64,000 nt of DNA. Source: Taeniopygia guttata. Its lineage: Eukaryota; Chordata; Aves; Passeriformes; Estrildidae. Positions 7,378 through 58,330 of this stretch are shown here, one piece after another; position 1 is the stretch's first letter; each line of letters starts with the position of its first letter. Under the pieces are notes generated by a model. That model was not told the origin of the DNA. It did no database searches and saw only the letters and a list, made by a program, of their open reading frames with translations. A program made the translations under genes and the position numbers. Location of the stretch: positions 16,248,501 through 16,312,500 of the forward strand of contig NC_133032.1 in the NCBI RefSeq assembly GCF_048771995.1. The letters run 5' to 3'.

Positions 7378-7495
7378 ATGAGGCTGCTGCGCGCCCTTCT
7401 GCGCGGCGCTGCCGCGGGCAACATCCCGCAGCAGGTGGACTTCTACTCACGCTTCTCCCCCTCGCCGCTCTCCATGAAGCAATTTCTGGACTTCG
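7378..7495 (+). CDS. PDK1: PDK1 coding exon 1
   Basis: Starts at ATG after CTGCACC and ends before gtgagt, after 39 codons plus one base. It encodes the Arg-bearing presequence [10 protein letters not shown]... and the start of the mature enzyme ([20 protein letters not shown]). The ATG agrees with the family N terminus MRL. Confidence 0.95.
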
Positions 7496-22123: not shown

Positions 22124-22291
22124 TTAGCAGCTTGATTCAAGAGTGGCCACAACTCTGCCAGTCTTGCGAACTTCTTTCTCCTTCTTTTGAACCTTTTCCT
22201 TCTGCTTTTCCAGTTTTTCTTGTGTTTTTCTAATATCTTTAATTTTTTTCTTTATTGTTGATCGGTCATTTTGACTGGAAACTCCCAAAGC
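22124..22291 (-). CDS. PPP1R9A-like: Neurabin-like coding exon 18 and stop
   Basis: Acceptor cctccaaag; 55 codons and TAA. Encodes [20 protein letters not shown], the last SAM helix, and a Lys/Glu-rich coil ([20 protein letters not shown]) ending ATLESSC. Family equivalents are KALGMTASQDRAVVKKKLKE and the following basic coil. Confidence 0.96.
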   Translation of the reverse strand, partial: ALGVSSQNDRSTIKKKIKDIRKTQEKLEKQKEKVQKKEKEVRKTGRVVATLESSC

Positions 22292-25200
22292 CTTTGGAGG
22301 AGGAAAACAAAACAAAACCTCATCAGTAATTTTTTTCAACAGCACTGTTAACGGTGCTTGTGCATTAACAATAGAACAGTGTCACTCACTTTTTGACAAG
22401 ATAATCTGTTTATTTGAAAGGTAAAAACTTAAGGCTGCAAAAACACTGCAAATAATCATCTGGGTAACAAGGCAGGTAAGAAAACCAAGGCCACCTCTTA
22501 AGTTTTGAAATAACAATTTCATGTTGCATTTTACAAACATATAAACCCCTGAGAATTCCCAGAAGATAACATCATTGGTATTAGTCTCCAGATCTTTTTC
22601 TAGCTCTTTTTATACACGAGGAAATTTTACTGAGTAAGAACTCTTTAATTTGAAGGATTTTGAAGTGAGTTGTTCCGAGGCGGCTCAGGAAGCGGACGGT
22701 ACACTTCCACTTGCGGACGGCAGGTGGCAGCACGCGATTCCGAGTGTCCGACCCGGCTCCGCAGCTGGACACAGCGAATCACAGGCCAGTCACTGCTATT
22801 CCCTCTGTGCCCACCAAGTTTTGTAAAATACAGGACATTTAGTGTTGCATGCCTATTTAAAATGCAGGCATATTTTTGAGACTGAAGTCAGAACAACTTT
22901 TTTCCCCCTAAGCTCCTCAAATTCTGCTATTGATCATTAATAATAATTTGCCTTATGCCAGAGTAGACCAATGAACCTCTTCTAGCTGCACATCTTGCCT
23001 GTCCATAATGCAGTCTCGTAATCTAACAAGAAAGAAAAACTGCAGGAATTTACCAGAACTATAAGGGACACATATATACTGCAGCTTCCAGGTGTAAAAT
23101 GGTAAGAAAAGGATCAAAATATTCAGAATATGTATTTTCAGCAGGCATAAAAAACTTGAAACATTTAAAATGTCACCAGATAGGGTTTTAGCCTTCCCAT
23201 TTGAAGAGAAAATGTTGAAGAAACAGATTTCTAAAACTGGATCCTGCAATTCTATTTGAGTTGGCCAGAACTTGTTTTGATATGACTTTATGTTGAGATT
23301 GGTGACAGATTTATCAAGACTCTTTGGACAATTCTGGTTCCTTTTATTTCCTCAAGATACAAACAAGGAAGCAATATTTGTTATTTTTCTGACTATAAAC
23401 AGCCTTTAATTCTACAATCAATTACTAATTACCACCTAACTATACAGTCTCCAAGTATTTCAAAAGCAACTCAAAATAACAAGAGCAAATAACTCTTATT
23501 CCTTAAAAAGCCACAGAACCAGCAAACTGGACTTTGTAGATTAAATATATGTCTAAATAAGCAGTGAAACCTATACAGTTACAAATCCATCCTGGGATGT
23601 GCACATACCTTCAACTTCTCACTGTCGAGCTGCATCAACTGCTGTCCATCTACATTCATAGCTGTGAACTCCGTAATATACTGCTCCATGTTCATTCCCA
23701 TTAGCCAGTGGCATACTTGCTGGGTGGTCCATTCAGAAATAGGTCTACTGTGCCACTGATTTTGCTTTCCTGTTGTTGTAAGTTCATCATCCAATGCCTA
23801 ACCAATTGAGAAAAGTCACCATAAACAATATTTTACTTGACTGTATGTTGAATTCCAGTTGTCAGTTTAGTTTGGTTAACAAAGTGCATTTTCACACATG
23901 CTCTACTCCAAAAGTAAAGATCTTGAGATCGCTTTGCCTAATTTACTATAAACAAGACACTTCAACATTCATCACAAACTAAGGCAGAAACAGAGAACAT
24001 AAATGGTAAATTGGACCTATCCAAACAGTGTACACACTGCCTCAGTTAAGGTAGCTCGGTCTTAATGTTAAATGCTACCTTACACAGCATGAAGAACTAT
24101 TAAGAACTTCAACTCCATTATTATTGTTAAGTGATGGAAATCCAGAATAAAAGCAATTCTAGTAGTCAGTAAATGTGGTGAACGTCCTAGGTACAGGTTT
24201 GTTACGTTTTGTACATTTGTCAAGAGAAGTCTGTTCTTTGAACTAATGCTATTACGTTGACATTTTATAAAGTCTGCCCAAATAGAAGATGACCATTTCA
24301 GAAACATAACAGCTTGTAGACTTCCACTGAAAATACACTTTGGCAGCTCACAGAGCTTTTGAGACACTCTGCTTCAATTTCATTTTGCTTCAGAGGGGAA
24401 AAGGTACTGCTGTTTGTCCTGAAGCACTATTACTTCATCACAAAAGAAAAACTACACAACAAAGCTCAGTGTGTGTAGAGAAGAAATTCCAGTGTAGTAT
24501 TTGAATCACTAACATCAGTTAACTGAAGTCTTATTAACTATCCACAATCATCTCTCACCAGCTCATGACTGAGTACAGGCTGCATTAGACTGCTCACCCA
24601 AGATATTTGCAAACAGAAGAAAATATTCTCCCCTTTTCCAGCGAGTCATTCCCTTTTACAGGCATTTGTAAACAGAAAACACAGAAAAAAAAGTTTTCTA
24701 GTTACAGATTTGAGAGATGACCGTTAAGTCGCAGGTGAACAACTACAGCTGCCAGCCAAACGGATCTCACAAAATCCAGCTTGTTTGATGGAATATTTAT
24801 GAGAGTTGATTGATATAACAAAATTATTGTGGTGATTACAAGTCAAAGACAGTGAGATGTAGCCCTGTCACATGATCTGATCATGCAACACAATGGATCT
24901 AAGCAAGCAATATGGAAGACACGTATGAGGAGACACACAAAATTTTCAAATTTCCAGTGTATTGAAGGACTACATGTTATTTGAAATGGTTTTGCTTTCC
25001 CTGGTCTGTGAAACAAGGGACAGGGACTATGTTAAGAGGCAATACAAATAGAAATGAGTTTGTAGAGCCGAACAGCTTGTGCTGAGGTCTGAAAATCCAC
25101 ACTACAAGCATTTCAAAGGATTTTCACTTCCAAATAGCTCTAGTGTGATCACAAATACTCAATGGCTACTAGCTGCTGGAACGTAGCAGGACCACTGTTG

Positions 25201-28200: not shown

Positions 28201-31200
28201 TAATAAAAATCCCATCACATTCATGAACCACCAGTCTGGAAAGCCCTCTAATTCATTTTACATAAGATAACGATGTTCTATTTTTAATGAGTTTTCCTAA
28301 ACTAAAGAATTTATTAAGATGTCTATCAGTCAAACACCAAATGAGACAATATCTCAGAATGCTACCAAAGTGTAGACTTTGGGCTTCAGCTGTAGCCAAA
28401 GGAGTAAGTTCTCCAGGGGAATGAACACACTTTCAGGTGTCTAATTTCTACCTATATATCAGAACCACCATGTTCTGACTTCTTTCCTTTTTTCTTTTGT
28501 TTTATTGACATGAAATTTTATCATAAAACAAACTTGCACAAGATGTGAAGGCAAGGTCAAAAATGTTGCAGTTTTCATTCACCTGGGAAGCTGCTTTAAA
28601 TTAGTGGAACAGAACAGCGTTATATTTAAAACTAAAAACTTTGATTTGATCACTGAGTTCAGATTCAGATTTTTTATGATATAACTAGGATCAGAGCACA
28701 CAGGCTGATGTGTCATGCACTAGTGCATGTCCTTAGTTCATTTAGCTTCTTTACAGTGCTCTTCAACATTCAAATATGTAACAGCCATCCAGTTTCACGT
28801 ACACACATCTGTTTCTATTAAACATGCTGTAGTGTGAACAACAACATCAACAACACACATATACACACTTTGAAACTCACCTCATTTGAAGAGAAGGTTA
28901 AAGTGTGTGAACGACCTGACAGATTTGGTTCTGTCACTAACCCTGAAAGTTCACAACTTGGCTTGCTATGGTATGTATCATCTATGACAATTCTACTCTG
29001 CAAACAAGTGGAAATAATGTTTTATTAACTCACTTCTTGGAAAAGCAGGTCATTAGGTGACATTCTAGCAATTCTGATTTTTGGTTTAAAAAAATAGTAC
29101 GACTCAGTTACCTTTAGAACACATATGAAATGTACTAACTATATCAAGCATCTGACTTGTTTTTGATAAACTTCTGAATTCAGAAACGCAGTAACAGATT
29201 TAAAGCAATATCCCCAATAAGAACAACTCCTGCAGAGAATTGGTCATAACCAGAAATGGTGTTAGAATACACAAGTAAGTGCATCAGTCACTTTTTTAGC
29301 AGGCATACCACACTGTGGGAGAAGCAATTTAAAATGCATTTATTGGACTTATTCATGATTTCATTAAACTGAAACCTCCACAAACACTACGAATGTGTTT
29401 CAGAAGGTAGCACTCTGTTGATTCCCTTGATTTCCAACTCAGATTGTGACCTTGAAAATATTTTTCGGTAGTGAGTGAAAAATAATTTTGCCAAAACCAT
29501 GCCTCAAAATTTTGCCTTTCTAAAAATTTATGTCTCAGCACTACTCTTTGCTGCCTACAAACAGTACGTAATCATTTACCAGTAATTTCTCTAATGTTCT
29601 CTAAGTCTCTACTCAACTAATTGCACTTTGTAAGGATGCCATACCACATCTCTACATACATAAATAAACTAAAATCCTAAATTAAGTTGATCTCAATGAT
29701 ATTTTTCTCCAGTTAGTTATGCTCATATAAGACAACTACATTTTTGCAGTTACCGTCATTTAGCACTTCTTGTATGTGTGTTCTGATTTCAATTTCACCT
29801 GAACTCTCAGTTTTCTGGAATATTCTATTTTTGTTTTTTAAGTGCACTCCCTTATACTCTAAATTATTGATACACATTTTCAGCCTTAAAAACACCTCAC
29901 CAAAGCTCAAGAAAAAAGCCATCACCACCACAGCACAACAAACATAAAACCTCAAACCACAACTTGACTTCTCCTGCTACCTCTGTGTAGCACTTTTCTT
30001 GACTGAGAAATGGTGTTCTAGTTATCATGTAGATTATTTTATCAATTACATTAAATGTTAGGGTCTTCTTCATTCTTTCAGATGTAAAAAGTATTACCAG
30101 AAACAGCTGAATACTTTGTCCATCAACCTATTCTCAAATTACCTTCAACCCAAGGTGAAAATCTAAGAGCTTTTCTTTTAGCCACCCTCAGTTCACTCTT
30201 TCTACCCTTACACAGAAAATCAGGAACAACTCAGACAAACAAAACTAGAAGATAAAATAATAAAAACACAGCCAAAAGTAAAGCATCTGAGCACCAGTTG
30301 TAATGCTTCCTCCTCTCCCTCCTCCTCCTAATCAGTTTATAGAAGTAATTTCCTTTTAACCACTTAGAGCCAGTTGCAAAGATTTTTAACTCTTGAATAG
30401 CATAGAAATTGGACAGAAGAGGTTTCACAGGTATGCTTCCTATTATTTAAGGTACTAGGATATAGTTTATACCACACTGTTCTTCCTTACCCTGAAAATG
30501 AGACTGCATGCACACTTACAGAAGCTAAGTAGTATTCTGGAAAAACAATGAGTATAAACACTCTGTATGTGTGTATATTGTATCAGAAAATAGGACAGAT
30601 TTACATCAAGGGAGTAATTTAAGAACTGTCTGAAAGCACACAGGATTTTAGTTCCTGTGTTTCTTGTTTTCACAAGGATCAAGAAGCTGACTAACTACTT
30701 TGTCAAACAGTAAGTTTAAAACTAACTTCAGAACCATTTTAAGAAAATAAAAACATTTCAAGTGTAGTAACTTTCAGAGGCAAATTTTGCAAACCAGAAA
30801 CCAGAGAAAAACGAACCTAATTCTATTCCTTACATCGTCAATGCTAAAACACAACTACAAAAATTATACATGATGCAAAGGACTCAGTTCTACAGAGATT
30901 TTTACATGACAAAATTCTTATTTTAGGCTTTCTACTTTTACCTCCTGTTTAAGGAATGCTGTCACATGATCACATGGGATACTACAAACATAAAAGGAAT
31001 ACATTCTATTGCTATATTTATGATATATTGCTTTATTTATAAACTTTGAGCTGATATCAACAAAAAGGAGTATTCTTCCCTTGAATTCTGGGAAGATGAC
31101 TTTGTTCCTTGCTTTTATATTGTTTTAGTAACAAGACTCACTTCTGAGTGGTCAAGCATGTTTCTTTGTCAGTTTTAGTGCATTTTCACAGCAAAAAAAA

Positions 31201-37200: not shown

Positions 37201-40200
37201 CAAATTTCCTTAGTTCAGGAAAATTTCTGAACTTACATACTTATGGATACCATCTGAATCACATGGATCTGATTTAGAGGCTGTTAGCCACCTCTATACA
37301 CATCTTTCTGCACATCCCAAGTAATCTTTTCCGAGCCAAATCAGAAATATTCTAGTACACTTTAGCCATTCCAATTCAATGTGGCCAGTTTGCAGTCTCA
37401 CTGAATTAGTTCAATGTCCTCCTTCTATGACAGGCTCTCTCATATATTGACTATACCTCAATTCTTCAGTTGTTTTCCATGAGAACATTCTACTGGTACA
37501 CTTCTTGTGAACTCAAATGATGATTTATGGAATAATGAAGCATTTCAGAACTCTTTAGTTTTCAAAGAAATTTGGTAACTAACTTGTTCCAGATGAAGGC
37601 ATAACAAGATAAATCAGTATATTTCACAACATATCACTGCATCAAAATCTTTCAGCAAGCAGAAGTAGCACAGAACAAGCTCACATAGTTATTTGCTAAC
37701 TTCAAATTAACTGTGCCACAAAAACACGCTGGAGTTCACGTGTATGTTATGAACCCTAAAGGGTTTTTTGTTTGACACAGCATAAAACTACGTTGTTTTG
37801 GCACGAAGCATGGAGAACACTTGCAATTGCAAATACAGACAAAACTCAACATATGGTCAGTATCCAGAGTGCATGATTATCAATGTCAGTACCAGTGTCA
37901 GTACCTGTAGATTTGCAATCTGTTGTCCACACCCAAGAGATTCTTTCAGCTTTGATCGAGAAGGTGGCTGGCGTTTTACCTTCAAAGCAAGCTGAGCTTT
38001 TGCTTTGTGGGCACTGGTGTCTAATCTGGGAGTATCCCCAACAAAAGCATCAAAATCTGCAACAAACACATACTTATAAAAAAAGTAAACAAAAAACCCA
38101 GCAAAAACTGGTACACAAGTTTACCAACCCACTGTCCGGAAAATATTCAGAATCTAAGTCAGAATTATTCTATCTGTTAACCATTACTGTATGAAAATAC
38201 TTTTAATATTATACTGCACTATTTTACATATTGCGTTAGCAATTTCTATATTTGAAATATACTTTTACTCAACTCCTTCAATTAAAAAATAATAAAATCC
38301 AACAGAATATAATTGTCTTATGGATTGAGAACTGAATTCTGTTCTAAAATTGATGAAAATTTGTGCCCCAGATGTGCTTTCCTAACATCATTCTGTAGGA
38401 TAGAAACTCTTTACAAAATAAGAATTTACCAAGTATTTTAAAAATTTCATTCTCATTTGAACCTCCATCTGATATTTTGTAACATTCTGTACATAAAATT
38501 ATGAGACAAAAAAATCATAGCAAGTTTACAGCAAATTACAGCTTGAAACAAATGGGATTTTAACTGACATACCTCAGTGTTTTAGTCCCACTATTAATTT
38601 CACTAACAGACAATCTGAAGAACAGTTAAAATAGTTGTCTCTCCATCCATCTCCTCTTTCCCACAACACTTAAGAAATAAATTAGAACTATACTGAAATG
38701 CTGGGGGAACCTAAACTCACGTATCCACACTGACTCAGCTAAAACATTCACTCAGTCAGTATGAAACAGCAAACACTTCACTTCTCTTAACAACAAAAAA
38801 ACCCACTATATATACAACTCCTCCTAACTTTCCTTAAGTGCAAATAAAAAATACTACAATCTACTTACCAGAAATCAGCATGTCTAGAGAATTTATTCTT
38901 TCTTCTATTGATCTGGTTTCTTTTTCATTGTCTTCTTTTATCTTTGACTCATTAGATTGGCCTGGACTTTGACAGTCACCATCCAATAAACTGGCACCTT
39001 CAAACACATAAGGCATTTTCTCATATGCTTTTAATTTATTTTCAAGCTCTGAAATCTGCAATAATTAAAATTCAGAAATGAGATACAAGTCTCCAGAAAT
39101 GCAGAAGTTTATTTCAAAATATAATAATGCTTTACTTTTTCCTGATATATTTTCAGTTGTTCTGCATATTTCTGGTCTCTCTCTTCAAGTAGCTTTGAAT
39201 GATCTTCTTCTTTCTTCATAAATTCTATTTCTCTGGTGAAAGAAACATATACATGTCTATGAAGTAGTAATATACAGAAATATAGAAAAATATGTTAAAC
39301 AGAAATATGCACAATTGCATTTATTAAAAAGCATTCCATTAGTGAATGGTGACAAAAATCAATCTGCAAGGTGTAACTGATCCATTAATCTTATAGTGTC
39401 ATAAAATGACATATTTATTGGTATGCGTCTACTGTCTTCAAAAGAAAATACAGATGATTGTTATTTACTCTGGGCAGAAAAGGATGCATGGCAACACTTT
39501 TTCTGCAAAGTTACAACTATCTCTCATTTTAAAAGTGGCAAGTTGCATATGCATAAGCCTGAAATACATGCATGACTCCAATAATTACATCTTACTTTCT
39601 TCCACAAAGATACATGCACACACAGAGTATGTTTTCCTTCCAAAAGCTATGGCAAAATTCTGTTGGAAAATAAACTGCATTTCAAGTTTCTACTTGGTTC
39701 ATCCTACAGCATTTGCAATGGCTGGGTTTTACAAAAAAGAAACAACGACTACAAGAAGGAAACAAAAATTAAAGCTGTTTTTGCCTGCGTCATATCAAAT
39801 GATATACAAAACCAGAAAATAAGCATAAAACATCTACAACAGATGCAGAAGCTTCAGGGACAATCAAACAAGGAATGGAAATTTGCTAAACAGCGAGGGA
39901 ATGGGAAGTAGCATGTTAGCAGTCATCTTCACGTACTTGTGAACTTCCATGCGGATAAGCTTGGGAGGAGAGGGGAAAGGAGACCTTTAAAAAGCTGACC
40001 AAACAGCACAAAAACGTACTGTGAGAAGTAACACTTCTGGATGTGGACTATAGAGCAAAAGATCATAATAAATTGCCTTTAAAAGTAAGTATCAAGTGGA
40101 GAAATTTAGAACAAGAAAATTATATGCTTACAGCAACTACCAAAAGCAACAGTTGTGCTCTGTATTATCAGGATATATCTACAAATATTTTGCAACTTCC

Positions 40201-43200: not shown

Positions 43201-46200
43201 ATTAAGATGAAAAGATTATGATAAATTTTCAATGTGCCAGGGTAATGAAAAGGCAGCAATGCACTTATGATGACAACTGGGACACAGAATAAAGGAAAGA
43301 CTTAACAGTACTAAATATTTTTACAATCAGCACTTAAAAATAAATGTGCTGGCTTTATTTAAAAATTAAGCCATGTATTAAGCCACAAATCTTCCCAGGA
43401 TTATTAGAATTCAAAAAGACTACACTTAAGCCAAATGTAAAGATTTTTTAAAACAAGTATTAATTGTTCCTTGTATCTCCCTTTCCATCTGTAACCCTGA
43501 GGAGATTTTCTTTTTTTTTTTGTCAAGGCACATTGCACTAATCCCAAATTAAAACTGGTGAATCCATGACAATTTTTCATTTAGATTTTGTTAGTAACAG
43601 CACAGTAATGATTCTGCATGAGATTATAATTGTATCCCAAGTAAATACAGCACTTAAGAAGCTTCAGCTTGCTGCAATGTTTCCAAACCGAGAAAAATTG
43701 TGAATGTTCTCTAGAGATCAGCAGCCTGCAATTTCTACTTCCTCAATGACACTGGCACCATTATCAAGAGAACAAACTTAGGAGACCTGCAAAACACCAA
43801 TCCTTCACAAAAATAAGCTGATGTAGCAGCAAATAGCATCTGACAAAACAGGTTCTTTGCAGTATATTTTTCTCCTCCCAGAGTGAAATTGACAGGCATT
43901 TAAACCTACCAGAGAAGCCTAGACTCCTAAATGCCAAAGTCTGTACCATTTAAGTCCCTGACTAAATCCCAGCCCTGAATAAAGCAAATATGCTCCTTTA
44001 TAAAAACCTTGGGAAAAGAGAACCCTACTATTTCCAATTATGTTAAGTTGTGATTCAGAGCCTGGAATGCTCTATTGTGTTTACAAATCCATTCCTTCCA
44101 AAAAACACACCATAAAAATACTCTCCAAGCCAAAAATATGCCTATCTACAGAATCAAGTGCTTTTATGTACACAGATTTCTCAGACGATTGCAGGGACTA
44201 AACCAAGAAATTAGATATATATTTCTTGTCTTCCTGAAAAATATTTCACAACAACACCAGAATCTATTCAAAACAGGCATATTTGCACAACCCCCATGCT
44301 CTCTGCAGCTAAAGCCATTCTACTGGGCAGCAAACACAAGCCAATGGGCCACAGGAGAACTAAGAGAAGCCATTGTATCTATCTAATGCAATACTCATAC
44401 AACAAGGACAGAGTTCTGGCTGGGCTCTACTGCCTGTTTCCAAGGGCTTTGAAAATTTAATTTAAATCAAAAGTGTTTAATGAAAATATGCATAGGGAAA
44501 CTGGATATAAAAAAATTACAGAAGACCTACATTCCAATGGACATTTACCAGAATATTTATTCGTGACACTGGGAAAAAACAAACCCAAAGTAACGAGACG
44601 GAACATGAAGGAGATTATATCCAAATCCTACAAGGTTCAGATGTTCCCCAGTGTATCACAAAGAATATTTAAGAAACTGCTACAACACCTCTTTAAATTT
44701 AAGAAGAGACTGTGCTGAATCCATATCCAGTAGTAAACCAATATCTTCATTTTCAGGAAGATCAAAAACTTCTACAGATTTTCCATGTAAATGTGACTCA
44801 TATGTATCCTCCTCATCATCATCATAGTCATCATCCTGACAAAATGAGAAAATCATGACATTTTGTAATACATACACATACACATTTTTGCATTAAGGTA
44901 GTAGCAATAACCAAAGCATAAGATTAAGGAATCCAACCAGCTGCATAATTTTTCTTGACTAGTTGCTATTCCTTTTTAATTTCTTATACCTACAGTAAGT
45001 GTTAAAGACGACTTGCAAACACTTTCAGCAAAGTTCCACAAAAGAGAGCTAAGAAAGACGTGCACGAAACTATCACATCCAGCTGACAGTTAAAAGAGTA
45101 TTTTGAATGAGTGATAAAGCAATAATCATGTGCCTTGACAACAGTAGGGTATGAAGTGCTTATTTTCCTGTTCTTAACAAGTTGCCTGTGTTATACTTTT
45201 TTTGCTTCAGTTTGATTAAATCCCACCATTGGTAAATTAGCAAAGCATGAACAATGTTTTACCTGCTCTGTATCATCATGAACATAGTGCTGCTCGTACA
45301 GACATCTCTCTTGCTCTAAGGTCTCACTAATGAGACGGGCTACTTCGCTCTCAGCCCCCGGCTTCTCTCTCCCGATCAGGAACCTACAGGAAAAAAAACC
45401 AAATTATCTTGCAGCAAAAAACCTTAAGACATGCGTAAGAAATGAGTTTGCTACACTGCTGACTTCCACAACATCTTTGTAAAATTTTCACACTGTGGTT
45501 TTGTGTTCTCCAGGAATGAAAAATGAAAAAGAAACTATTATTTCAGAGAAAACATACGTACCTCACGGTGCCTTTGGTGTTCTTTAGTACAGTGGCTGCA
45601 AAGAACTGAGTAACTCCCACTAGACTTATGCCATCAACCTCAACAATCTGATCATTTACTTGAATTCTGCAAAATAAATAAATGCTTAGCTATCAGTTAA
45701 GCAATAGTATTTTGGCTTGAAACATTACTGACATGACAAATATCACTTAAAACTATCATTTACAATAATAAATTCTGACTCATTGCTTAAAAATAGTCTC
45801 CTCATCCTCTGTTACTATGCAAATCATCAATTGAAATTTACACAGTATTTGACTTAATGTTTTTACATTATTTACACAGTGACTGTGTTCTGGAGTGTCA
45901 ACATGATTTTGTGGTACTTCTACACATAAGCTCATTTTGGACGTTTCTCATATGTGCAGCAGATCTACAGTTACTTAGCAAAAATGTCCTATAATAAAAA
46001 ACTTATTTTTTAAAATTTAACATAAAGCAGAAATGTAATAATCACTCAGCTGCGCTCAGTACTTTTTTACTTTTATTCACAGTATTCAGCAGATCTAATA
46101 AGTCAACAAGGCTCAGTTAGAAATTTGTAAAAAGCATAATCGATTCAACAAAAAACTCACCGTCCATCCCTCTGAGCGGCTCCCCCATCCGTTATTGTTT

Positions 46201-49200
46201 TTACAAAAATACCTAGTTTTTCCAGTCCCTGATCAGCACCAACTCCCATTCCAATGATACTGATGCCCAGACCCCTGTCACCTAAGGGATTCAAAAATCT
46301 AACATTAGCTGCATGACACATGATGTAACAGTTAGCAGTACTGAGTTGTTTCAAAGCATTCCAAGTCTTTCTACACAAAAGATAATAGAAACTCAAATTT
46401 TAAAAAGAGAAACTGCACTTAGTAGAGGCCTGCCCAGTTAATACTCACTGAAATTCAACAGAACCAGCCACAAATCTAACCCTAGACATACATTCAAAAA
46501 TTCAAGACCTAAATTTGGGGAATATACAGTTATGGTTTTATCTTTTGTTCCCACAATATCTCTTGTAAATGTTCAATATTTGTTTTGTACCTTTTTCAAT
46601 TTCCACAGGAAACACTTCCATTTTTTCCACCCTTTTCTCAAGTTCATACTCAGCTGAGGCTGCCACAGGGTCAACTTCTTCATTACGTCTATCATAGTCC
46701 TCATTTGAGTAAGTACTGAAAACCTAAAAAATGTAACAGAAAACTTTTTAAAATGTCTTCTCACCTCGTTTCAAACATCATATAATGGAAAGACAATCTG
46801 TAAGGAAATTATAATGGTATTTTCAGAGATCTCATTTTCTAAACAACCATCAATTTAATAAATACTGCTGCTGTCACACAGTTTCCAGCTTGCACAGAAG
46901 TAACATTTTAAGTTTCAAACAATTACTTTAACAGATTTTATCTTGCAAATGCACCAACTAGTTAAATCAGTCAGCTCCTCTTTAACATCGTGTGACTTTT
47001 TTATTAGGACTACATTCCATAAAATCCTTCCTCTCTTCTTCTTCCCTCCCCCCACACCATCTGCCAATTGCAGTGTTTCAAACAGATGTAGTTTTCTGAT
47101 TCTGCAAGGGAATCACGCAGTTTCCCAGGAAAAGGAAATGCCTTGCTACATACATTACTATTTTTAGTATTCACTCCAGCTGAGTTTCTGAATTGTTAAA
47201 AATAAAATATAAACAAACAACAAAAATTAAGACAGAAATCTAGAAATGAAGAATAAACTATATGTAACAGGGTTAATCTTACATACCAGCATGTTCAGTA
47301 ATTGTATTTAAATTAAGAAGTTCAGAAAAAAACAGGGAAAATATTGCTCCCTCATTTGTCTTAAAAAATAAGGTTTATCTGATAAATGTTTTGCAGGCAC
47401 TGAGAGTTTTATCCAACATCATTGTAAGACAAAAAAACACCCATTGCAGCTGCAGCAGCCATCTCCCTAATCAAGAACATGCAGCACTGACATGAAGTTC
47501 ATTCACACTGTCTTACTGTATTTTTGCAACTGTTGTATTTTCTGCTGAGATTACTTAAACAGGTAACTGCAATCATGGAAACACCACAGCACTAACTGTA
47601 ATTAACATTTTCCCTGTGAATTTACATTCACTAGTATATAGCTTTAGCTCTGCAGAGCAGTAGATTCAGACACCGAAAAATGGTCATTGAAACAGAATAT
47701 TGAAAGGCAACCAATATAATTCAGTATTTCCCATGAGGAGCCTACTGCATCACCTTCAGACTACAACTAGAGATCAGTTTCACAAACTCTTCCCAAGCCC
47801 TGCAAAACACCTACTCCAGAAATGCAGCATGGCCATATAGTCAGTCCAGTAAGCAAGCAAGATTAGATCCTTGGCTGAAAGGGAAGGAAGAAATTCACTC
47901 TCAGAAATCTTATGACTTCCACAATGAAAGAACCCTCCTTAGAAGCTGTTATTCCTACATCTTGCATAAAGTTTAATAAATAAACTCCTCGTGACTGTCA
48001 TACAGATACCAGTAGGCAACAACAAGACACAGAAGGACAACAAGGGTCACACTTACAGTATGTCTTCCATGAAATTTATAGAAAAAATCTGCAAAACAGA
48101 CAAAGAAAACCATCTAAATGGTCTTATTCTACCACTACCAGAAAAAAGGTGGCCAAGTTCTTTAAATTAATCACCCTCCTCAGCCCCCAAATCACTAAAT
48201 CAGATACGCAGCAGAAGCATTTCATGAAGCATTATTCACCCTTTGGAACAAGACTGGCCTAGTCTGTGTATTTTTCATCCCAACAGAAAAAGCAGCATCT
48301 CCAAAAACATAGTCAAATGATAATAAGATGAATTTTAAACTAATAATAAAAAGGAAGTTCATGAGTGAACAAATGATAACTTGTTAGTGAGAACATTTGA
48401 GCTCTTGAGGACAAATCAAATACTAAAGCATGAAAAAAAAGTATAAATGCATATCCATACAACCTAGTATTAACAATATGACTAAATGTTAAAAAGATAC
48501 CTTAACTACCAAATGGTTGAATGAGCAAAATGTGGAGAATGGCAGTAGTCCATTTTGGAGACGGTGACAACTGTATTTTCTTAGTTCTTTACTACTCAGT
48601 AGTCTAACAGAGCAGAAGATTATGCAAATAGCTACTTTCCACTGAAGAATAACATTACCACAGGGATGACCAGTTCCTTGCACAACAATATAAAGTGCTA
48701 GAAAATTGGGGAAACAAAGTTGCACTGTAACAACGGCATTATGTATGCTGCATGCCCTGGGCCAGCATTAAAATATCTCTGGAACGTCTAAAAATGATTT
48801 ATTATTTTTCCAGTTTAAAAGTAACAGAACTGTACTTTAGAGTCTCACGGAATTTGCTCATTTTTATACAAAATTGATCACAGAAATTGTTCATCTACCA
48901 GGTGTGGATAACAGAATCTAAAACTAGTGGTGGCTTAAGTTCCAGTGATGTTTACAATTGCTATTAATAAAACAATGGCATAAACATATCTATGCAAATG
49001 AAGAATCCTAATATTTATGCATACTAGCTTTCTAAGAAAAGCCTATTTGAAACTAATTCTGCATAGTTCACTAAGAGAAAGAGTTCATACTTTTGTCTTA
49101 AAGAGACAGGTGACAACTGTATGAGAACATTTGGGTAATGTTCTAAAAACCATAACCTCACAATTAAAAGATAGTCCCATTTTAAAATAGTAAGAACAAC

Positions 49201-52200: not shown

Positions 52201-55200
52201 TGCTAACAGTGTTAGCTACCTTATACACCCCTTGGGAGCTCCCCAATCTCCTTTTACTCAAAGACCCTGCCAATATTCCAACTGACTAGAAGCTTTGAAA
52301 CGAAATATTAATCCAGTTCTCTTTGTTGCAGTAGATTAAATGCTATTTTTAAGGTGCCTTAAGTTTTACCCATTACTGACACACATATCCAACCCCCCTT
52401 TTGCATATTTCAAATACAACAGTCAAAGCTACATCACTGCAGAATGCTGAAGATCTGAGAATGTCTTTTTTTCTGAACATTTTGAATTCTTCAACTCTAC
52501 CAGATACCTGCTAAACAACAACTGCAAGAGACACAGATGGCTTCTTTGTCATCACTAGAGATGCAGAATGAAAGCAGCAAGAATGCAAGGGCAGCCTGGC
52601 CTCTCTCAGGAGCATCTGTGAGGAGAAGAATCACAGACCTTCTCTAGTGGCTATGAAGGTCTGAAAATGGCACTCCCATTTTAGTAAAACTTATTACTCT
52701 AAATTAAGCTGAAAAAAAGAAGCTACTAGGATACATTTCTCACTATGGCACTGCTCTAAGCTGTGGGTAGGGACCAGGAATAATCTTTTAGCTACCACTG
52801 AGATTTTTTTCTCTTCCAATTTAAGATGAACCAGAATCTATGAAGAAAAACGGAGAGATTCCCTTCTGTGAGATAAAACTGGGATTTTCTAAAAGGTTAT
52901 TGAGATATCAGAAATACACAACTAAAGAAAGTTCTAGGTAGGCATAAAAGAGCTGGAATTCTTTATTTTACAGAGTACAAATCCCCAAAACCATATAACC
53001 AGGACTTATTCCCACTAAGTAGCATAGAAAACATGAAGCAAAAAGGCAGACATGGGAACAGAAATCATTGCTCAGGGAAAAGGAACAAAGAGGGAAAACC
53101 TATTGAAAATGGCATGCAGAAAGTGGTCTCTATACCCAATGTAGGAAAGATACAGTCAAGTTTCACTGAAAGGGGATAAAGGAAGGCAAGTATGACAAGC
53201 TTCAATTTAAGGGCCTTAAAACGTATCTCAATAACCTATTGCTATTAACTACAGTTTATTCTACCAATCCAAGTGGGGCATTATGGCAATAACTGTTATT
53301 TTTCATAGGAAACCACTAACAGTTGTTTCTAATGAAACAGTTGTTTCATTCATCTCTCAGATAATGTAAATGATAATATGAGACAGGTTGCTTACTGTGG
53401 CTTTCAGAGAAGCAGCTATAATTGAACAGTGCTTGTTACCAAAACCTGAGTTTTTGTCTACATGAGAGCTTCCATCATAGTTGGCACTGAGATTTCTACT
53501 AGGGTTCAACTATGCCTGGTATAGACACAGCAAAGAAGGCAAAAGTCTGTTAACAGCCACTGCTTCAGTAGGGTATCAGCAATGATCAGTAAAACCCTGC
53601 CTACAGCAGGAAGTCACTTAACACATTTATAGTAGACTCTACATGGCACTTTGCTCAGACACTGACTGCACAAATGCATGCAGAAATGGACTGATGCCCC
53701 TCTGGCTCTCTCCCAGCCCTAACCAGACTCATTATGCAGTTTTCAATAGCAGCACTCTCCCCTTCAGTGCTCCAGGTCACCACTAAAGCAACATCAACTA
53801 GAAGAAAGCCATATAAAGTCAGCTTGTCTATGGAGAGACTATAAAAAACCCACATGCAACAAAACTCACATTTTGCCAAATTTTTTTGCCACAATCAAAA
53901 CATCTTCTGGGGTACAGCACTGGTCTGCGCTAGCAAACTGGGAAATTACAGCTCTCTGCTGTGGGAAGTTCAAGAGTCAACAGAATTTTTCCATCCCTCT
54001 GATCAGTAAAATGAGTCCTGACTCTCTACAAACAAAGTGTAAAAGCTGTTTATTAAAAATTATTTCTTTCAGTCATGTGATAGTAGAAGAGAAGCATGCT
54101 GAGAAAAGTCTGTACCGTCTCCCATTCCATCCTTGTCCATGTCTCCCAATTCTCCTTCCAAAGTTTAACAAAGACTAGAATAATTCAAGTCTGCAAGAGA
54201 CTATGGGTAAACATAGTTTGAATTGTGGAGCAACTTATTTTGTGGGTATTTTTGTTGGGGGAAGATCAGACACGCAAGTATTTTTAATTTGTTAAAGTTA
54301 TAACTTACACTCCTCCTCATTAGCCAGTCTGCCCTCTAACTTTCACTTCTGAAACTTTGTAACTCCAAAATAATCATGTTAACACTCCTAAGGCATGTTC
54401 AGCTATCAGTATTAGAACCAAACGACATATATATGGGTATTATTGGAGAGAATTCTAGAATCTTAAAATACAAGAACCAGTCATTTGGTATTTTCTTATA
54501 GTTAATTCCATAAACAAGCCTGAAGTTGAAAGTTTGAAAGTATGAAAGTTTTCTATGGGAAGGCTTATTGATTTGTCTGGATTTTTAAAAAAACTTTTGT
54601 GCCAAAAGGAAAACTGAAAATAATAATTTCTAATGCAATGCCTCAGTTTAAAAAAAAATTAAAGTATTAAAGGTCACGGTGTTAGTATCTGCTCCGAAAA
54701 TATAACTGCTGCTGAAAAAGTCCAGCAAGTAAAATTTCATGTGCTTCACTACACTATCTTATGAAGCAGCTGTAATTAAGAAATCACTTGTGACTAATAA
54801 TTAATTTTCTGAAGTGGTAACTTCTCTCATACTTAGTGTTGAATAAAAGTTATAAACATGCACTTATTAAATGCTTTTTAGAACTTAGAAACACAAAAAA
54901 AAACCCTCAAAATTTATTTCCTGAGTATTTTTGACTGCAAAACAATAAAAAAAACCAAAAAAAACCCAAAAAAAATAAAAAACCACTCAAATGTACTTAC
55001 TTTGATAGGAGCTGTTGAGAACTTGACTTTTCGGTCTGGCGCTGGATCTTCCTCTTCAGAAAGTCCAGGAAACTCCTCATATTCGCTGTCATACATATAA
55101 TCCTCCTCTCCCTCCAAAATTTCTTTGCCTTCAGGCTCTTGGTTTTCTGCCTCTGTGTCCCTGTCATAATCAAAAGCTGCATTCTCTATTCCAAAATCAT

Positions 55201-56614
55201 TTAAGTTTGCCTCACTTTGCTTTTCTAACGCTTGCTCCTCTTCTTCGGTATCATCTTCCTGCTCTAGAACATCCTGCACCTGTGTAACTCCACCATCTCT
55301 TACAGACATCCCATCTCTTTCTTCTTCCCAACTGGTCTTGCTGCCATCCATAAACTCTTCTACCACTTCCAAAGCATAGTCGCTTCTCTTCCTTTCCTGT
55401 ACATCACATATGAGCTCCTGATTCTCTTGATTAACGTGATCTTTCTCCAAGCCTTTTTTTTCATGCCCTGAGGTTTCATCTTGTGCAACCAGCTCTGTGC
55501 AAGTCACCTCTGTGGGAGAAAACGAGGAGCAAACACTATCTGGTATCTGCTGAGCCTCCTGAGCAGGCACACTATCCATATTCCATTGGCTTCTCTCAAG
55601 TACCAGTTGCTCTCTTTTGTCTTTTCCAAGTGCCTTGCTTGGCTCATCTCTGCAGATCTCAGGCACTTTGGGGAATGCACCTTTCTCCAGACACCTTTCA
55701 GCAATAGCAGATGAATTCAAAGTGTGCTGGCCTCTCAAAGGGTCCTGATTCGGAGAACTACAATTTTTGGAAGTTTCTTTGGATTCTTCAGTATCACTGT
55801 CACCCAGAAAGCTTTCCAGCCTCCTAGAAATGGGCCCTGCATTCAGAAAGGAACATTTGGAACCACTATTACCATGTTGCTGCTTCAACTCCTCATTACT
55901 TTGATTTTCAACTTTCTCCGGTGCTACTGGAGGACTTGCTTCTGTATTAAAACTGAAGTGGTCCACCACATTGCTGCAATCAGAAGCTGAACCATGTCTC
56001 CTCTTATCTTCACTTCTTTCACATTTGCTAGGGGAATATCTGTCCACTGAGCTCCGCTGTTTTATATTTCTCTCGAAGAGCTTCCTGGTCTCTGAAAATT
56101 TTTCTGCCAGGGCTACTTTGTCTAAGTCTGCCTCATCGCTGCTACGGATGACTTTGTCAGCAGCAGAAGACACAGACAATGAATCCACGGGACTGCCACT
56201 GGAGCTGGTAGTTGTATTAAGAAGATTATTTTTTTGGAGAATGAGAAAAGATGGACTACCCGGAGACGATCCATACTCTGCTGCTGTGGCCCGGCTGATC
56301 AGTTTAGTCTCAGCAGGTGGACTGCTTTCACAAGAGGTTGCGGAAGAAGAGCTTCCCATTTGCAGAAACATATTTTTGATCTTGTGTACTCTGTTGCCAT
56401 AAGTGGCAGCTCTGCCTCGACTGTGTGGGTCACTTCCCCCTCCATTGGAAGAGGTGCTCAGCTTCTGATGCAAGCCCGTTTTGCTGGAAGCGTTATCAGG
56501 ATTGTTTACACCATCAAAAGAACATTTGATAGCATGGAAATCAGATTTGTAAGCATTTCGGTGAGGAGAAGCACTTCTTAAAGTCCTTTCCCCCTTGCCT
56601 TCGGTTTTCATCAT
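22124..56614 (-). CDS. PPP1R9A-like: Neurabin-family PP1-targeting scaffold, third paralog (18 coding exons)
   Basis: Joined CDS in transcript order: 55001-56614, 46591-46723, 46161-46281, 45562-45666, 45263-45383, 44689-44835, 42897-42950, 40897-41126, 39136-39232, 38869-39055, 37905-38056, 36777-37110, 34690-34774, 34040-34111, 33363-33579, 28881-28997, 23609-23797, 22124-22291. Total 4,143 nt with all phases consistent: 1,380 residues. Domain order: F-actin-binding N terminus ([10 protein letters not shown] at 13-22; [11 protein letters not shown]), PP1 docking KVKF at 529-532 with the following Ser, PDZ about 573-663 ([14 protein letters not shown]), acidic patch, coiled coil about 735-935, Ser-rich linker like SAMD14 (940-1262), SAM about 1275-1340, Lys/Glu-rich tail. 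Neurabins recruit PP1 to actin in spines and cell junctions. It is not PPP1R9B, which has no SAM, nor a simple PPP1R9A, since exon 1 and the linker differ strongly. 'PPP1R9A-like' is a descriptive label. Confidence 0.93.
22292..23608 (-). other. Neurabin-like intron 17
   Basis: 1.3 kb, AT-rich except for an isolated CpG-rich patch at 22,670-22,775 described separately. Confidence 0.8.
22670..22775. promoter_or_regulatory. Isolated CpG cluster with CTCF-like site
   Basis: About 105 bp with roughly a dozen CpGs inside an otherwise AT-rich intron. At 22717-22730 (+) the bases ACGGCAGGTGGCAG fit 12 of 14 positions of the CTCF core, including the full AGRKGGCRS half. Candidate insulator or enhancer element near the junction of the two convergent genes. 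Confidence 0.4.
23609..23797 (-). CDS. PPP1R9A-like: Neurabin-like coding exon 17 (SAM domain)
   Basis: Acceptor attggttag, donor gtatgt; 63 codons, phase 0/0. Encodes [60 protein letters not shown] and KLK. It is clearly the neurabin-1/SAMD14 SAM fold (WSVQQVSHWLMSLNLEQY in neurabin-1). Confidence 0.96.
23798..28880 (-). other. Neurabin-like intron 16
   Basis: 5.1 kb, AT-rich apart from the CR1 copy. No additional coding exon was needed: exons 16 and 17 join in phase 0 to read SSNEALDDEL, matching the family. Confidence 0.75.
26700..27530 (+). mobile_element. CR1 LINE, 5'-truncated, in intron 16
   Basis: Avian-type chicken repeat 1, inserted antisense to the host gene. From about 26,745 (ctggatcgatgggcc) it follows the CR1 consensus through ATGAGCCAG...GCCCAGGTGGCC to a 3' end TTTTCCAAACCCATCGATTCTGTGATT at about 27,500-27,525. 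A frame at 26914-27288 encodes the C-terminal end of the reverse transcriptase ORF ([41 protein letters not shown]). Most of ORF2 and all of ORF1 are missing, and indels break the frame after the GVFSLED motif. Its clear but imperfect match suggests an old, inactive copy. The start is less certain than the end. Confidence 0.93.
28881..28997 (-). CDS. PPP1R9A-like: Neurabin-like coding exon 16
   Basis: Acceptor cttgtttgcag, donor gtgagt; 39 codons, phase 0/0. Encodes [20 protein letters not shown] and LTFSSNE. It aligns to neurabin-1 SADLSGLGAEPKTPGLSQ...LALSSDE, just before the SAM domain. Confidence 0.93.
28998..33362 (-). other. Neurabin-like intron 15
   Basis: 4.4 kb, AT-rich. No exon, RNA gene or repeat family recognised; short frames present are unlike any protein I know. 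Confidence 0.7.
33363..33579 (-). CDS. PPP1R9A-like: Neurabin-like coding exon 15
   Basis: Acceptor tttaaacag, donor gtaaag. Encodes [20 protein letters not shown], then [15 protein letters not shown] and [25 protein letters not shown] matches PFSWFTDS of SAMD14, a distinctive shared motif. Phase 2 in, 0 out. Confidence 0.92.
34040..34111 (-). CDS. PPP1R9A-like: Neurabin-like coding exon 14 (72 nt)
   Basis: Acceptor tttcacttcag, donor gtagtt (weak). Encodes [20 protein letters not shown] and LDS, comparable to the basic TLRRASTGKSRKEKG region of SAMD14. Phase 2/2, so it can be skipped in frame. Confidence 0.86.
34690..34774 (-). CDS. PPP1R9A-like: Neurabin-like coding exon 13
   Basis: Acceptor gaaaaacag, donor gtaaga; 85 nt, phase 1 in, 2 out. 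Encodes [20 protein letters not shown] and SKRRFPDFG, comparable to SAMD14 KTRRKFLDLG. Too short to be found as an open frame; placed by phase and homology. Confidence 0.88.
36777..37110 (-). CDS. PPP1R9A-like: Neurabin-like coding exon 12 (Ser/Thr/Pro-rich linker)
   Basis: Acceptor atttattgaag, donor gtaagg. 111 codons, rich in S, T, P, E ([36 protein letters not shown]) and ending in a Lys-rich piece VKGKEAKG. Disordered linker. Phase 0 in, 1 out. Probably part of a block that is alternatively spliced. Confidence 0.88.
37905..38056 (-). CDS. PPP1R9A-like: Neurabin-like coding exon 11 (start of SAMD14-like half)
   Basis: Acceptor tttgttgcag, donor gtactg. Encodes [20 protein letters not shown] and [20 protein letters not shown]. 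This parallels SAMD14 RLDSSLHKARAQLL...RPSRSRLRDS and neurabin-1 RAQLSVKNRRQRPSRTRL. Confidence 0.94.
38057..38868 (-). other. Intron 10, inferred spinophilin/SAMD14 break point
   Basis: 0.8 kb AT-rich intron with no recognised element. Upstream exons align to spinophilin and downstream exons align to SAMD14, as recalled from the human proteins. It marks where the PDK2-linked gene would have split. Confidence 0.5.
38869..39055 (-). CDS. PPP1R9A-like: Neurabin-like coding exon 10 (end of spinophilin-like half)
   Basis: Acceptor aattattgcag, donor gtaagt. Begins [15 protein letters not shown], comparable to the ISELEGNL near the spinophilin C terminus, then diverges ([20 protein letters not shown] and [13 protein letters not shown]). 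Homology to spinophilin ends inside this exon. Confidence 0.93.
39136..39232 (-). CDS. PPP1R9A-like: Neurabin-like coding exon 9 (coiled coil)
   Basis: Acceptor tttcaccag, donor gtaaag. Encodes [20 protein letters not shown] and [12 protein letters not shown], resembling spinophilin KEIEFLKKE. Phase 2 in, 0 out. Confidence 0.94.
40897..41126 (-). CDS. PPP1R9A-like: Neurabin-like coding exon 8 (coiled coil)
   Basis: Acceptor atcttttcag, donor gtaagt. Encodes [40 protein letters not shown] and [18 protein letters not shown], the conserved family coiled coil that drives dimerisation. Leaves in phase 2. Confidence 0.96.
42781..42866. repeat. A/C-only tract (G/T-only in the neurabin-like intron 7)
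   Basis: 86 nt on the plus strand with no G and a single T; the first part is an AAAC repeat. In the transcript of the minus-strand gene it is GU-rich with several runs of three or more G, starting 31 nt after the exon 7 5' splice site. Confidence 0.7.
42897..42950 (-). CDS. PPP1R9A-like: Neurabin-like coding exon 7 (54 nt, coiled coil)
   Basis: Acceptor tctgttccag, donor gtaagt. Encodes [18 protein letters not shown], matching family LQIKHAVTEAEIQKLK. Small symmetric exon (phase 0/0), so it could be skipped in frame. It is followed by a strongly G/T-only intron stretch. Confidence 0.95.
44689..44835 (-). CDS. PPP1R9A-like: Neurabin-like coding exon 6 (acidic patch)
   Basis: Acceptor attttgtcag, donor gtgttg (weak, fixed by homology). 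Encodes [20 protein letters not shown] then [13 protein letters not shown] and LLKFKE, matching the family IEVFELPENED...HKFKE segment. Phase 0 at both ends. Confidence 0.95.
45263..45383 (-). CDS. PPP1R9A-like: Neurabin-like coding exon 5
   Basis: Acceptor tttcctgtag, donor gtaaaa. Encodes the PDZ C-terminal strand [20 protein letters not shown] and [17 protein letters not shown]. It lacks the RRQRELL-type insert that neurabin-1 and spinophilin have after TLEQER. Confidence 0.94.
45562..45666 (-). CDS. PPP1R9A-like: Neurabin-like coding exon 4 (PDZ, second half)
   Basis: Acceptor attttgcag, donor gtacgt. Encodes [20 protein letters not shown] and [14 protein letters not shown]. Phase 2 in, 2 out. 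Confidence 0.96.
46161..46281 (-). CDS. PPP1R9A-like: Neurabin-like coding exon 3 (PDZ, first half)
   Basis: Acceptor aatcccttag, donor gtgagt. Encodes the carboxylate-binding loop [15 protein letters not shown] and [20 protein letters not shown]. Phase 1 in, 2 out. Confidence 0.96.
46591..46723 (-). CDS. PPP1R9A-like: Neurabin-like coding exon 2 (PP1-binding extension)
   Basis: Acceptor cattttttag, donor gtacaa. Encodes [20 protein letters not shown] and [20 protein letters not shown], nearly identical to neurabin and spinophilin. In spinophilin this stretch folds on PP1 next to the RVxF groove. Phase 0 in, 1 out. Confidence 0.96.
46724..55000 (-). other. Neurabin-like intron 1 (8.3 kb)
   Basis: Longest intron of the gene, AT-rich throughout. 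I found no exon, CR1 copy or RNA gene. On the gene strand its first 60 nt after the donor (54,946-54,994) are almost pure T runs separated by GG or GGG. Confidence 0.75.
55001..56614 (-). CDS. PPP1R9A-like: Neurabin-like coding exon 1 (actin-binding region and PP1 motif)
   Basis: Start is the first of two tandem ATGs (56614), giving [20 protein letters not shown]. The family begins MMKTE (spinophilin) or MLKTE (neurabin-1), and an in-frame TAA lies ten codons upstream. 538 codons, donor gtaagt after APIK. Conserved islands are [32 protein letters not shown] and, at the end, [20 protein letters not shown]. Between them the sequence is Ser/Glu-rich and unlike either mammalian paralog. Confidence 0.95.
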
Positions 56615-56639
56615 TGTTGAAGAGAAAGCTCCCTCCACT

Positions 56640-57379
56640 CCTTAAGAAGAATGGGAAGAACGATTCCCTAGCACAAAGCTTCCAGCCTCAAACACTATCC
56701 CAGAGAAGGTCCCAAAAGCAGCCTTTCACTTAGTCAGCCTCCCTGCTCGTACTGAAATGGAACGCAGGGGACTCTACGTGGAGAGAAAGAAATCAAAGCG
56801 CGTGAATGGCCACATCGGGAGTTATCCCCAGCGCAGATCGCGGTATCCGGAAAGCCATCTGCAGAGACACAGAGAGTTTCCATTAACGCGGGGCCTCGCC
56901 GGCGTGTGACACGAATCCGAAACTCGGGGTGGGAATCGCAGCCCAAGATCTCTCTGCGGGATAAAGCCCATTGTGTCGGCCGGGACGCGCGGACCCAGCT
57001 GCTCCTTGAGCACCGACCTGACGGCTCTGGCGGGGGATGCGGCGCCGGGCGGCCGCCCCGCCACCTCCGGCTGCCGCCCCTCCGCCAAGGGCCGTCCCGG
57101 GCCGGGCCAGGCCAGGCCGGGTCGGGCGGCGGGGGAGGGCAGCGCCAGCCCTTCCTGCCGCCCGGGAGAGGCCGGGCCCGGCCGGACCGCGAACACGCAG
57201 CGCGGCGGGGCAGGACGGAGCGGCCCTGACTCCCCGCGCCGCCCAGAGCGGGGGAAGCCGCCAAGTTTCGGCCCCAAGCTGGGGCTTCCCCGCGGTGGCG
57301 CTTCTGCGCCGCGGGGCCTGCGGGGCGCGCAGCGGGGCCGCCCCGGTACCTCGCCCCAAACTTTCCGAGCCAGCCTACC
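56640..57379 (-). other. Possible 5'UTR intron of the neurabin-like gene
   Basis: On the gene strand a pyrimidine stretch ending ttcttcttaag (AG at 56641-56642) could be an acceptor just upstream of the start, and CAG|gtaggc at 57373-57378 could be the donor of a noncoding first exon. Neurabin genes commonly have a noncoding first exon. Splice-site inspection only. Confidence 0.3.
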
Positions 57380-58330
57380 TGGGGGCGGGGGTCCTGCCGC
57401 CTCCTTCCCCTCAGCGTTCCCAGCCGCCCAGCGGCCGCACACACCACGCCATCATTATCCGCCGCCACAGCCGCCCGCCTTTCCCCTCTCTCTCTCTCCC
57501 TCCCTCCCACCCCCCCGCCCTGCCGCCGCCGCCGCCCCGCGCTCCTCACTCCACCTTCCTCCCGCCCCCGCGGCGCGCTCAGAACCGCCGCCCGCCCGCG
57601 CCGCTCCCCGGCCTCACGCTGCTCCGCGCCCTCCTCCGCGCTGTGTCTCGGGCCCGCCCGCGCGCGCTCCCTGCCTCGCTCGCACACAAAGAGAGGGAGC
57701 GGCGGGCGCGCCCCTGCTCCTCTCAGCGCCGCGGAAGAGACGGGCTGGGGGCGGCGGGCGCGACCGGCCCGAGGGAAGCGCCTCCTGCGCCGGGATATAC
57801 CACGCCATAGCGGGATACGGGTTTCGGGTGATACCATGTCGGCGAGGCGAGCCGGCGCGGGGCAACGTCGGTGGGCGCGGAGCGCTCACCGGTGCCTCCG
57901 CCGGGGGAGCTGCACACGGTGGGGCGAGGGACGCTGGAGAAACGCGAGCTGCTGTGATGCTGCGCGCTACTTTCAAAGCCCGGGCGGCCAGCGCGGCGCG
58001 GGGAGCGCCAGCCCCGGCTTCACCGCAAAGCAGCGCGCTTCCCGGGAGGGAAAAGTGGCGACAGCTGCCGCGACCGAGGCTCGGACAGATGAAGTAACAA
58101 CAGTATCAAGTATTCATTTTCTCCCCCCCTCCCCCTTCCTTTCAAAAATCAAGTTTGGTTTTAGCCTCTCCCGAGCAGGTAGGTGTCAGAGCACAGGAGG
58201 ATCCACAGCCGAGGCGGTGTCCGGCCCCTCCGCGCACCTGCTGCCCGCGCCCCGGCGTGGGGAGCCGCGGTGCCGTGCGCGGTCCGGACACCGTGGCATG
58301 TCCGCGCAGGAACGGGGCTGAGCCCGCTGG
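56880..58330. promoter_or_regulatory. CpG-island promoter of the neurabin-like gene
   Basis: 1.4 kb of extreme GC and CpG content immediately upstream of the minus-strand start codon, bounded on both sides by AT-rich DNA. It contains CCG repeats (57522-57536), a CT-repeat and C-run tract, and many GC boxes; no TATA box seen. Long open frames on both strands here are by-products of GC richness. A good donor-like site (CAG|gtaggt, 58179) on the opposite strand hints at divergent transcription. Confidence 0.8.
57498..57520 (-). promoter_or_regulatory. G-quadruplex motif in the promoter
   Basis: On the gene strand this 23-nt stretch has at least five runs of three or more G separated by single bases, next to a GA repeat (57482-57497). 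It fits the G3N1-7 quadruplex rule and lies in the likely 5'UTR or core promoter. Confidence 0.55.

Follow-up and report, generated by a model that had tools for sequence, protein, structure and literature searches.

Work on neurabin and spinophilin in mammals treats them as a family of two genes, and to our knowledge mammals have only two neurabin genes, PPP1R9A and PPP1R9B. A neurabin-family gene lying beside a pyruvate dehydrogenase kinase (PDK) gene in Taeniopygia guttata raises the question of whether it is one of these two genes, a copy of one of them, or a third member of the family. The stretch of DNA analyzed here, called the window, comprises 64,000 nucleotides (C9:16248501-16312500 of the T. 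guttata assembly; 1.14 Gb, 41 contigs), and the neurabin-family gene in it is called the window gene. PPP1R9A and PPP1R9B are abbreviated to A and B, bird A being the gene on contig C3 and bird B the gene on contig C29.

Structure and domains of the window gene

The window gene was rebuilt as 18 exons on the minus strand, running from position 56614 to 22124, with 4,143 coding bases, 1,380 residues and a single terminal stop. Exon and residue numbers were the same as those of the intact neurabin claimed in the earlier note. One frame runs through the whole model, and a GT donor and an AG acceptor were present in 17/17 introns, with phases that chain from exon to exon. The exons are as follows.

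Exon 1, 55001..56614, minus strand: begins MMKTE; N-terminal part homologous to the actin-binding region of neurabin; ends with RKVKF (528-532); placed by the model and by alignment with exon 1 of A and B
Exon 2, 46591..46723, minus strand: PP1-binding helix region
Exons 3-5, 46281-46161, 45666-45562 and 45383-45263, minus strand: PDZ domain and tail; PF00595 at residues 579-661
Exon 6, 44689..44835, minus strand: acidic linker
Exons 7-10, 42950-42897, 41126-40897, 39232-39136 and 39055-38869, minus strand: region matching the neurabin coiled coil, a putative coiled coil here as well
Exon 11, 37905..38056, minus strand: 30-residue stretch matching neurabin-1 and the published capping-protein-binding stretch of SAMD14
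Exons 12-15, 37110-36777, 34774-34690, 34111-34040 and 33579-33363, minus strand: linker
Exon 16, 28881..28997, minus strand: linker preceding the SAM domain
Exon 17, 23609..23797, minus strand: bulk of the SAM domain (1283-1345, extending into exon 18); PF07647, PF00536; neurabin-1 SAM 2gle
Exon 18, 22124..22291, minus strand: end of the SAM domain, C-terminal charged helix, stop codon

Pfam matches above the cut-offs were obtained for PDZ_5 (PF17817, residues 509-570), PDZ (PF00595, 579-661) and SAM_2 and SAM_1 (PF07647 and PF00536, both at 1283-1345). The PDZ domain directly follows the PP1-docking region, as the family requires (PF17817 followed by PF00595). An RVxF-type motif, RKVKF, is located at residues 528-532 and is followed by the conserved helix, so that the PP1-docking feature of the family is present and binding is predicted. 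The 49 residues from RKVKF onward were identical to neurabin-1 (9gsu) at 43/49 positions and to rat spinophilin (3egg) at 41/49, both from solved PP1 complexes. Towards the N-terminus, a 13-residue motif-x-x-V-x-x-IKN-x-F-x-QMG and ETRK-x-FER align across all three neurabin genes and mark a putative actin-binding region. Two exon-1 motifs common to A and B are missing from the window gene, and its exon 1 is identical to that of PPP1R9A at 128/440 aligned residues.

Of the traits named in the earlier note as spinophilin-like, one proved uninformative. The MMKTE start, read there as a sign of spinophilin, is not diagnostic, since bird PPP1R9A starts MMKTE and bird PPP1R9B apparently MLRTE. The spinophilin-like end of exon 1 was borne out by a 14-residue stretch that resembles rat spinophilin (3egg). 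The SAM domain was likewise recovered with Pfam, and it is absent from bird spinophilin, the frame of which stops in exon 10.

The least certain exon was exon 13 (34774-34690) with its poor acceptor score. It was picked among six phase-compatible candidates and ranked second, the first being only 13 bases long; leaving it out gave 12 stops in frame. No counterpart of this exon was found at the PPP1R9A locus on C3. Other splice sites, such as the donors of exons 2, 6 and 11, also had low scores on the crude scale used. Weak splice-site scores, above all that of exon 13, and the extra divergence of the linker are compatible with a decaying pseudogene, but 1,380 codons are read over 34 kb without a stop or frameshift and the PDZ domain is 71/89 identical to that of the fly, as against 68-70/89 for the five A and B rows. 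Decay is accordingly considered highly improbable. Exons 12-15 total 708 bases and their joint skipping, a hypothetical event, would by arithmetic preserve the frame; a short form of neurabin-1 presumably skips the matching exons. The sequence at 56000-58500, at the 5' end of the neurabin gene, is GC-rich; the long open frames on its two strands seem to be a matter of base composition, and it may contain a promoter common to neurabin and an upstream gene.

Sister neurabin genes in the same genome

A whole-genome search with a 515-residue query resulted in 23 matches among the best candidates scored: ten in the window gene, six on C3, five on C29 and two weak PDZ matches on C40. With exon 1 as query the same three loci, and only these, were found among the best candidates scored, C29 weakly (E 0.04). 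No fourth neurabin was seen with the two queries among the best candidates scored. A search of the whole genome with the PDZ family profile, in which the best 150 of 299 candidates were scored, was too broad to discriminate. The C3 locus (neurabin at 24.71-24.84 M, exon 1 at 24712458) has a SAM domain and is PPP1R9A; the C29 locus (neurabin at 0.82 M), where the frame stops within exon 10 without a SAM domain, is PPP1R9B. Separate PPP1R9A and PPP1R9B genes, for which the earlier note had proposed a search, are present in this genome, and each is convergent with a PDK gene. The lack of another PPP1R9A, which would have refuted the reading in that note, is thereby ruled out.

The eight exons E2-E9 have equal phases in the window gene, A and B (8/8) and equal lengths in 6/8, namely 133, 121, 105, 121/136/136, 147/156/153, 54, 230 and 97 bases (window/A/B where unequal; the acceptor of A exon 6 was chosen by phase). 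Chance can be excluded for the window-gene model because of this match in phase and length with counterparts in both paralogues. Past exon 9, A has counterparts of window-gene exons 10, 11, 14, 15, 16, 17 and 18, and at the position of exon 12 it has an open exon of the same phase and dissimilar sequence. A processed copy was ruled out by the 18 exons with family phases. Near C3:24826379 (approximate position), a PPP1R9A reading frame, PLRRSSSKGKKRKEKE, resembles window-gene exon 14 and a stretch of the provisional SAMD14 sequence described below; it is probably an alternative exon.

Sequence identity and phylogeny

Identity was counted over 126 PDZ-region residues in three A rows (bird and mammal), two B rows (bird and rat) and the window gene. 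Bird A was identical to mammalian A at 121-122/126 positions and bird B to rat B at 123/126, as compared with 108-111/126 for the window gene against the three A rows (bird A 108) and 104-105/126 against the two B rows. The closest match in this genome to mammalian neurabin-1 is therefore the C3 gene (121-122/126) and not the window gene (110-111/126), and that to rat spinophilin is the C29 gene (123/126) and not the window gene (104/126). In exons 2-9 the identity was 65% (219/336) between window gene and A, 64% between window gene and B and 73% between A and B, the window gene being the most diverged. Its domain set, SAM included, is that of PPP1R9A, which would speak for PPP1R9A or PPP1R9B itself having been translocated to a place beside PDK1. 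Such a translocation has practically no probability, since C3 and C29 carry separate genes that are 121-123/126 identical to mammalian A and B and that each converge with another PDK.

The PDZ-region tree was rooted with the fly PDZ domain (4xhv) as outgroup, over 89 columns. In the best such tree the window gene fell outside a group made up of A and B (SH-aLRT 90.9, UFBoot 79 for this group). The A rows were not monophyletic in the same tree, B joining rat A (74/48), which indicates that the PDZ-region alignment is short on signal. Four columns unite A and B against the window gene and fly, and one unites A and the window gene against B and fly. In a five-tip unrooted tree, bird A and rat A were set apart from the other tips with a bootstrap of 82. 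In AU tests a place of the window gene beside bird B was rejected (p 0.003-0.004 for the PDZ region; 0.003 and 0.0096 in further tests), and a place beside bird A was not (p 0.10-0.15; 0.06-0.10 with SAM added and the SAMD14 row left out; 0.20 with five unrooted tips). Neither a sister position to the whole A clade (p 0.28-0.54) nor one to the whole B clade (p 0.05-0.11) was rejected.

The earlier note had made its reading depend on the window gene falling outside the A and B clades. This held for the best trees, which place it outside A+B, and for the rejected position beside B; the position beside bird A was disfavoured, and here the AU test did not reject. The outside position may in part be a rate effect, the window gene being the most diverged in exons 2-9 and two exon-1 motifs being missing. 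Identities and best trees agree with a duplication that may predate the split of birds and mammals; a place beside bird A was not rejected in the AU test.

Genomic neighbourhood

The loci used in the comparison of neighbourhoods are as follows.

PDK1-type pyruvate dehydrogenase kinase gene, 7378..17747 of the window, plus strand: six coding pieces; convergent neighbour
C9: DLX 16.12 M, PDK 16.26 M, neurabin 16.27-16.31 M, Hox9 17.73 M
C29: neurabin 0.82 M, PDK 0.834 M, DLX 0.857 M, Hox9 1.13 M
C3: neurabin 24.71-24.84 M, PDK 24.91 M, DLX 25.48 M, Hox9 33.76 M

The convergent PDK1 neighbour claimed in the earlier note was recovered as six PDK1-type pieces at 7378-17747 on the plus strand, with the neurabin gene on the minus strand; the two genes stand tail to tail with about 4.4 kb between the PDK1-type coding pieces and the window-gene stop. 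A genome search with the PDK family model resulted in 11 matches; C9, C29, C3 and C1 had two apiece and C18 had three. The coding pieces of the C29 PDK run from 836.4 to 830.7 kb (minus strand), convergent with PPP1R9B, and the C3 PDK at 24.906 M, likewise on the minus strand, lies about 70 kb from PPP1R9A in convergent orientation. The model of the distal-less N-terminus gave three matches, one each on C3, C29 and C9, a partial count of the DLX genes, of which vertebrates have about six. Four matches were obtained with the Hox9 activation model, on C3, C29, C9 and C31; on C31, the fourth Hox9 contig, there was no neurabin, PDK or DLX-model match. For C1, a fourth neurabin adjoining the PDK was ruled out, C1 having no match to the 515-residue or exon 1 query among the best candidates scored. 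Two matches to the sarcoglycan model adjoin the loci of A and B. We assigned the names PDK1/2/4 and HOXA/B/C/D from family models, position and known synteny.

The window gene thus lies within a duplicated block together with other ohnologs, PDK, DLX and Hox9 matches being found on the same three contigs. A neurabin-PDK-DLX-Hox9 block in triplicate, with the fourth neurabin missing, is the pattern expected from two rounds of genome duplication. A PPP1R9A copy that arose later, in the reptile or bird line, and was inserted beside PDK1 would fit the place beside bird A that the AU test left open (p 0.06-0.20). It would need a chance landing, in convergent orientation, beside another PDK gene and on a contig that carries a further DLX and Hox9 copy, and it is further opposed by the identity of the window gene to bird A (108/126) as against that of bird A to mammalian A (121-122/126); we regard it as very unlikely. 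Because synteny decides where the tree leaves the matter open, the window gene is very probably a third neurabin of vertebrates, intact and ohnologous, on the HOXD side, to PPP1R9A on the HOXA side and PPP1R9B on the HOXB side. It would have arisen when the genome was twice duplicated early in vertebrate history and have been retained in this lineage. The same reading in the earlier note gains its support from the three convergent neurabin-PDK pairs with DLX and Hox9 on the same contigs.

RasGEF matches were located at C9:16506103-16512060 (plus strand), about 200 kb beyond the window-gene start, and presumably belong to RAPGEF4, judging from known synteny; in the interval 58.5-74 kb no exon 1 of RAPGEF4 was recognised. 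Further RasGEF matches were at C31:4577018 and C3:31724457-31727585, which with C9 makes three of the four Hox9 contigs, and another was at 2.98 M on C29. By position we take those on C9, C31 and C3 to be RAPGEF4, RAPGEF3 and RAPGEF5, and these genes, too, may belong to the duplicated block.

Predicted function and comparison with known neurabins

Members of the neurabin family bind F-actin with the N-terminal region and self-associate through the coiled coil and the SAM domain. By analogy, we infer that the window-gene protein is a PP1-docking, F-actin-attached scaffold like neurabin-1. Its N-terminal region would attach to F-actin and its coiled coil and SAM domain would self-associate, both as in neurabin-1; PP1 would dock, as judged from the family, on RKVKF and the helix that follows, and the adjoining PDZ domain would bring substrates to PP1. 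Substrate choice by PP1-neurabin is mainly through the PDZ domain, as shown with 4E-BP1 (PMC12185105).

Neurabin-1 and the window gene have in common the domain order, SAM domain, intron phases of E2-E9, convergent PDK and MMKTE start. They differ in sequence (PDZ region 108-111/126, exons 2-9 219/336, exon 1 128/440), and PPP1R9A is located on another contig, together with a separate DLX and Hox9. Spinophilin is similar in a 21-residue docking stretch, PDZ domain, exons 2-9 and convergent PDK, whereas its bird form stops in exon 10 without a SAM domain and the window gene runs eight exons further. Fish annotations include ppp1r9ala in carp and neurabin-1-like in salmon (there with the symbol ppp1r9a) and eel. 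By their names, fish ppp1r9ala/b and neurabin-1-like may be the same third gene; the earlier note proposed zebrafish ppp1r9ala/b as possible orthologs.

The neurabin family is already known, with matching gene names in fish, and the window gene is an additional member. Among the open-access matches listed by title and start of abstract, neither a third neurabin in birds nor an account of SAMD14 as a spinophilin fragment was described. With a third intact gene, studies in birds, and perhaps in fish, must count it before either of the other genes is called essential or redundant.

SAMD14 and a probable split of spinophilin

The C-terminal half of the window gene is similar to SAMD14. The human SAMD14 sequence used was provisional and was compared with published landmarks. 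According to these publications, residues 38-54 of SAMD14 align with neurabin-1 at 64.7%, R43 and R45 were probed and the stretch binds capping protein (PMC9282853); the SAM domains of SAMD14 and neurabin-1 are 57% identical, with SAMD14 SAM limits of 323-390 (PMC7242717); and N339 is named in SAMD14 (PMC7689012). The provisional sequence carries R43, R45, N339 and a SAM domain at 323-390, and it was identical at 40/68 positions to the neurabin-1 SAM domain (2gle) and, for residues 38-54, at 10/17 to bird A. Because published residues, SAM limits and identities agree, it is probably right. The exon 11 counterpart of the capping-protein stretch was identical at 8/17 positions to the provisional SAMD14 and at 9/17 to bird A.

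The provisional SAMD14 is collinear with exons 11-18 of the window gene, its pieces aligning in order with residues 935-976 (22/42), 1118-1231 (38/93) and 1241-1369 (58/118). Alignment scores were 108, 90 and 274, and 300 shuffles per piece reached at most 55, 71 and 63, the middle piece being the weakest. Within residues 935-1369 the likeness includes the capping-protein-binding stretch, an RR(K)F..LR(R/K)..FSWF block, the SAM domain and the charged tail. The differences are that SAMD14 has no counterpart of exons 1-10 and that it forms a gene of its own beside PPP1R9B in cattle and human. The authors of PMC3833843 state that SAMD14 adjoins PPP1R9B in both species, that RNA-seq and the human map make them separate genes, and that a cattle automatic gene model ran PPP1R9B into the neighbouring SAMD14. 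Bird spinophilin ends just before the point where the SAMD14 collinearity begins.

One split of the spinophilin ohnolog is the simplest reading, given the collinearity of SAMD14 with exons 11-18, the spinophilin stop in exon 10 and the adjacency in cattle and human. It is likely that an ancestral neurabin split in the spinophilin line, with exons 1-10 becoming PPP1R9B and exons 11-18, its detached C-terminal half, becoming SAMD14, and that the window gene is the unsplit form. A SAM tree that included the provisional SAMD14 preferred SAMD14 with A over the window gene, with three alternatives unrejected (AU p 0.10-0.29); SAMD14 being nearer to A than the window gene is predicted by the A+B grouping. 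SAMD14 could instead always have been separate and have joined neurabin either in two events, one in A and one in the window gene, or in a single event before these two genes diverged. A pair of independent fusions that arrive at the same order and the same join is less simple than one split, and the SAM tree, with the alternatives just given, also speaks against a SAMD14 that was always separate, which we hold to be unlikely.

SAMD14 was not found in this genome with the window and bird A SAM domains as queries across the assembly, nor at 800-870 kb of C29 with the C-terminal half of the window gene or motif patterns. SAM matches outside the neurabin loci were 25-38% identical, and the interval of about 2.4 kb from the PPP1R9B stop to the PDK2 coding end (C29:828294-830683) contains no SAMD14-like frame. 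SAMD14 may have been lost in this bird.

The undivided window gene offers a direct and testable origin for SAMD14, which three publications describe as a regulator of red-cell recovery and as a lymphoma autoantigen common to neurabin-1 (PMC7242717, PMC9282853, PMC7689012). The split of spinophilin, if true, would explain why the capping-protein stretch and the lymphoma autoantigen epitope are common to SAMD14 and neurabin-1.
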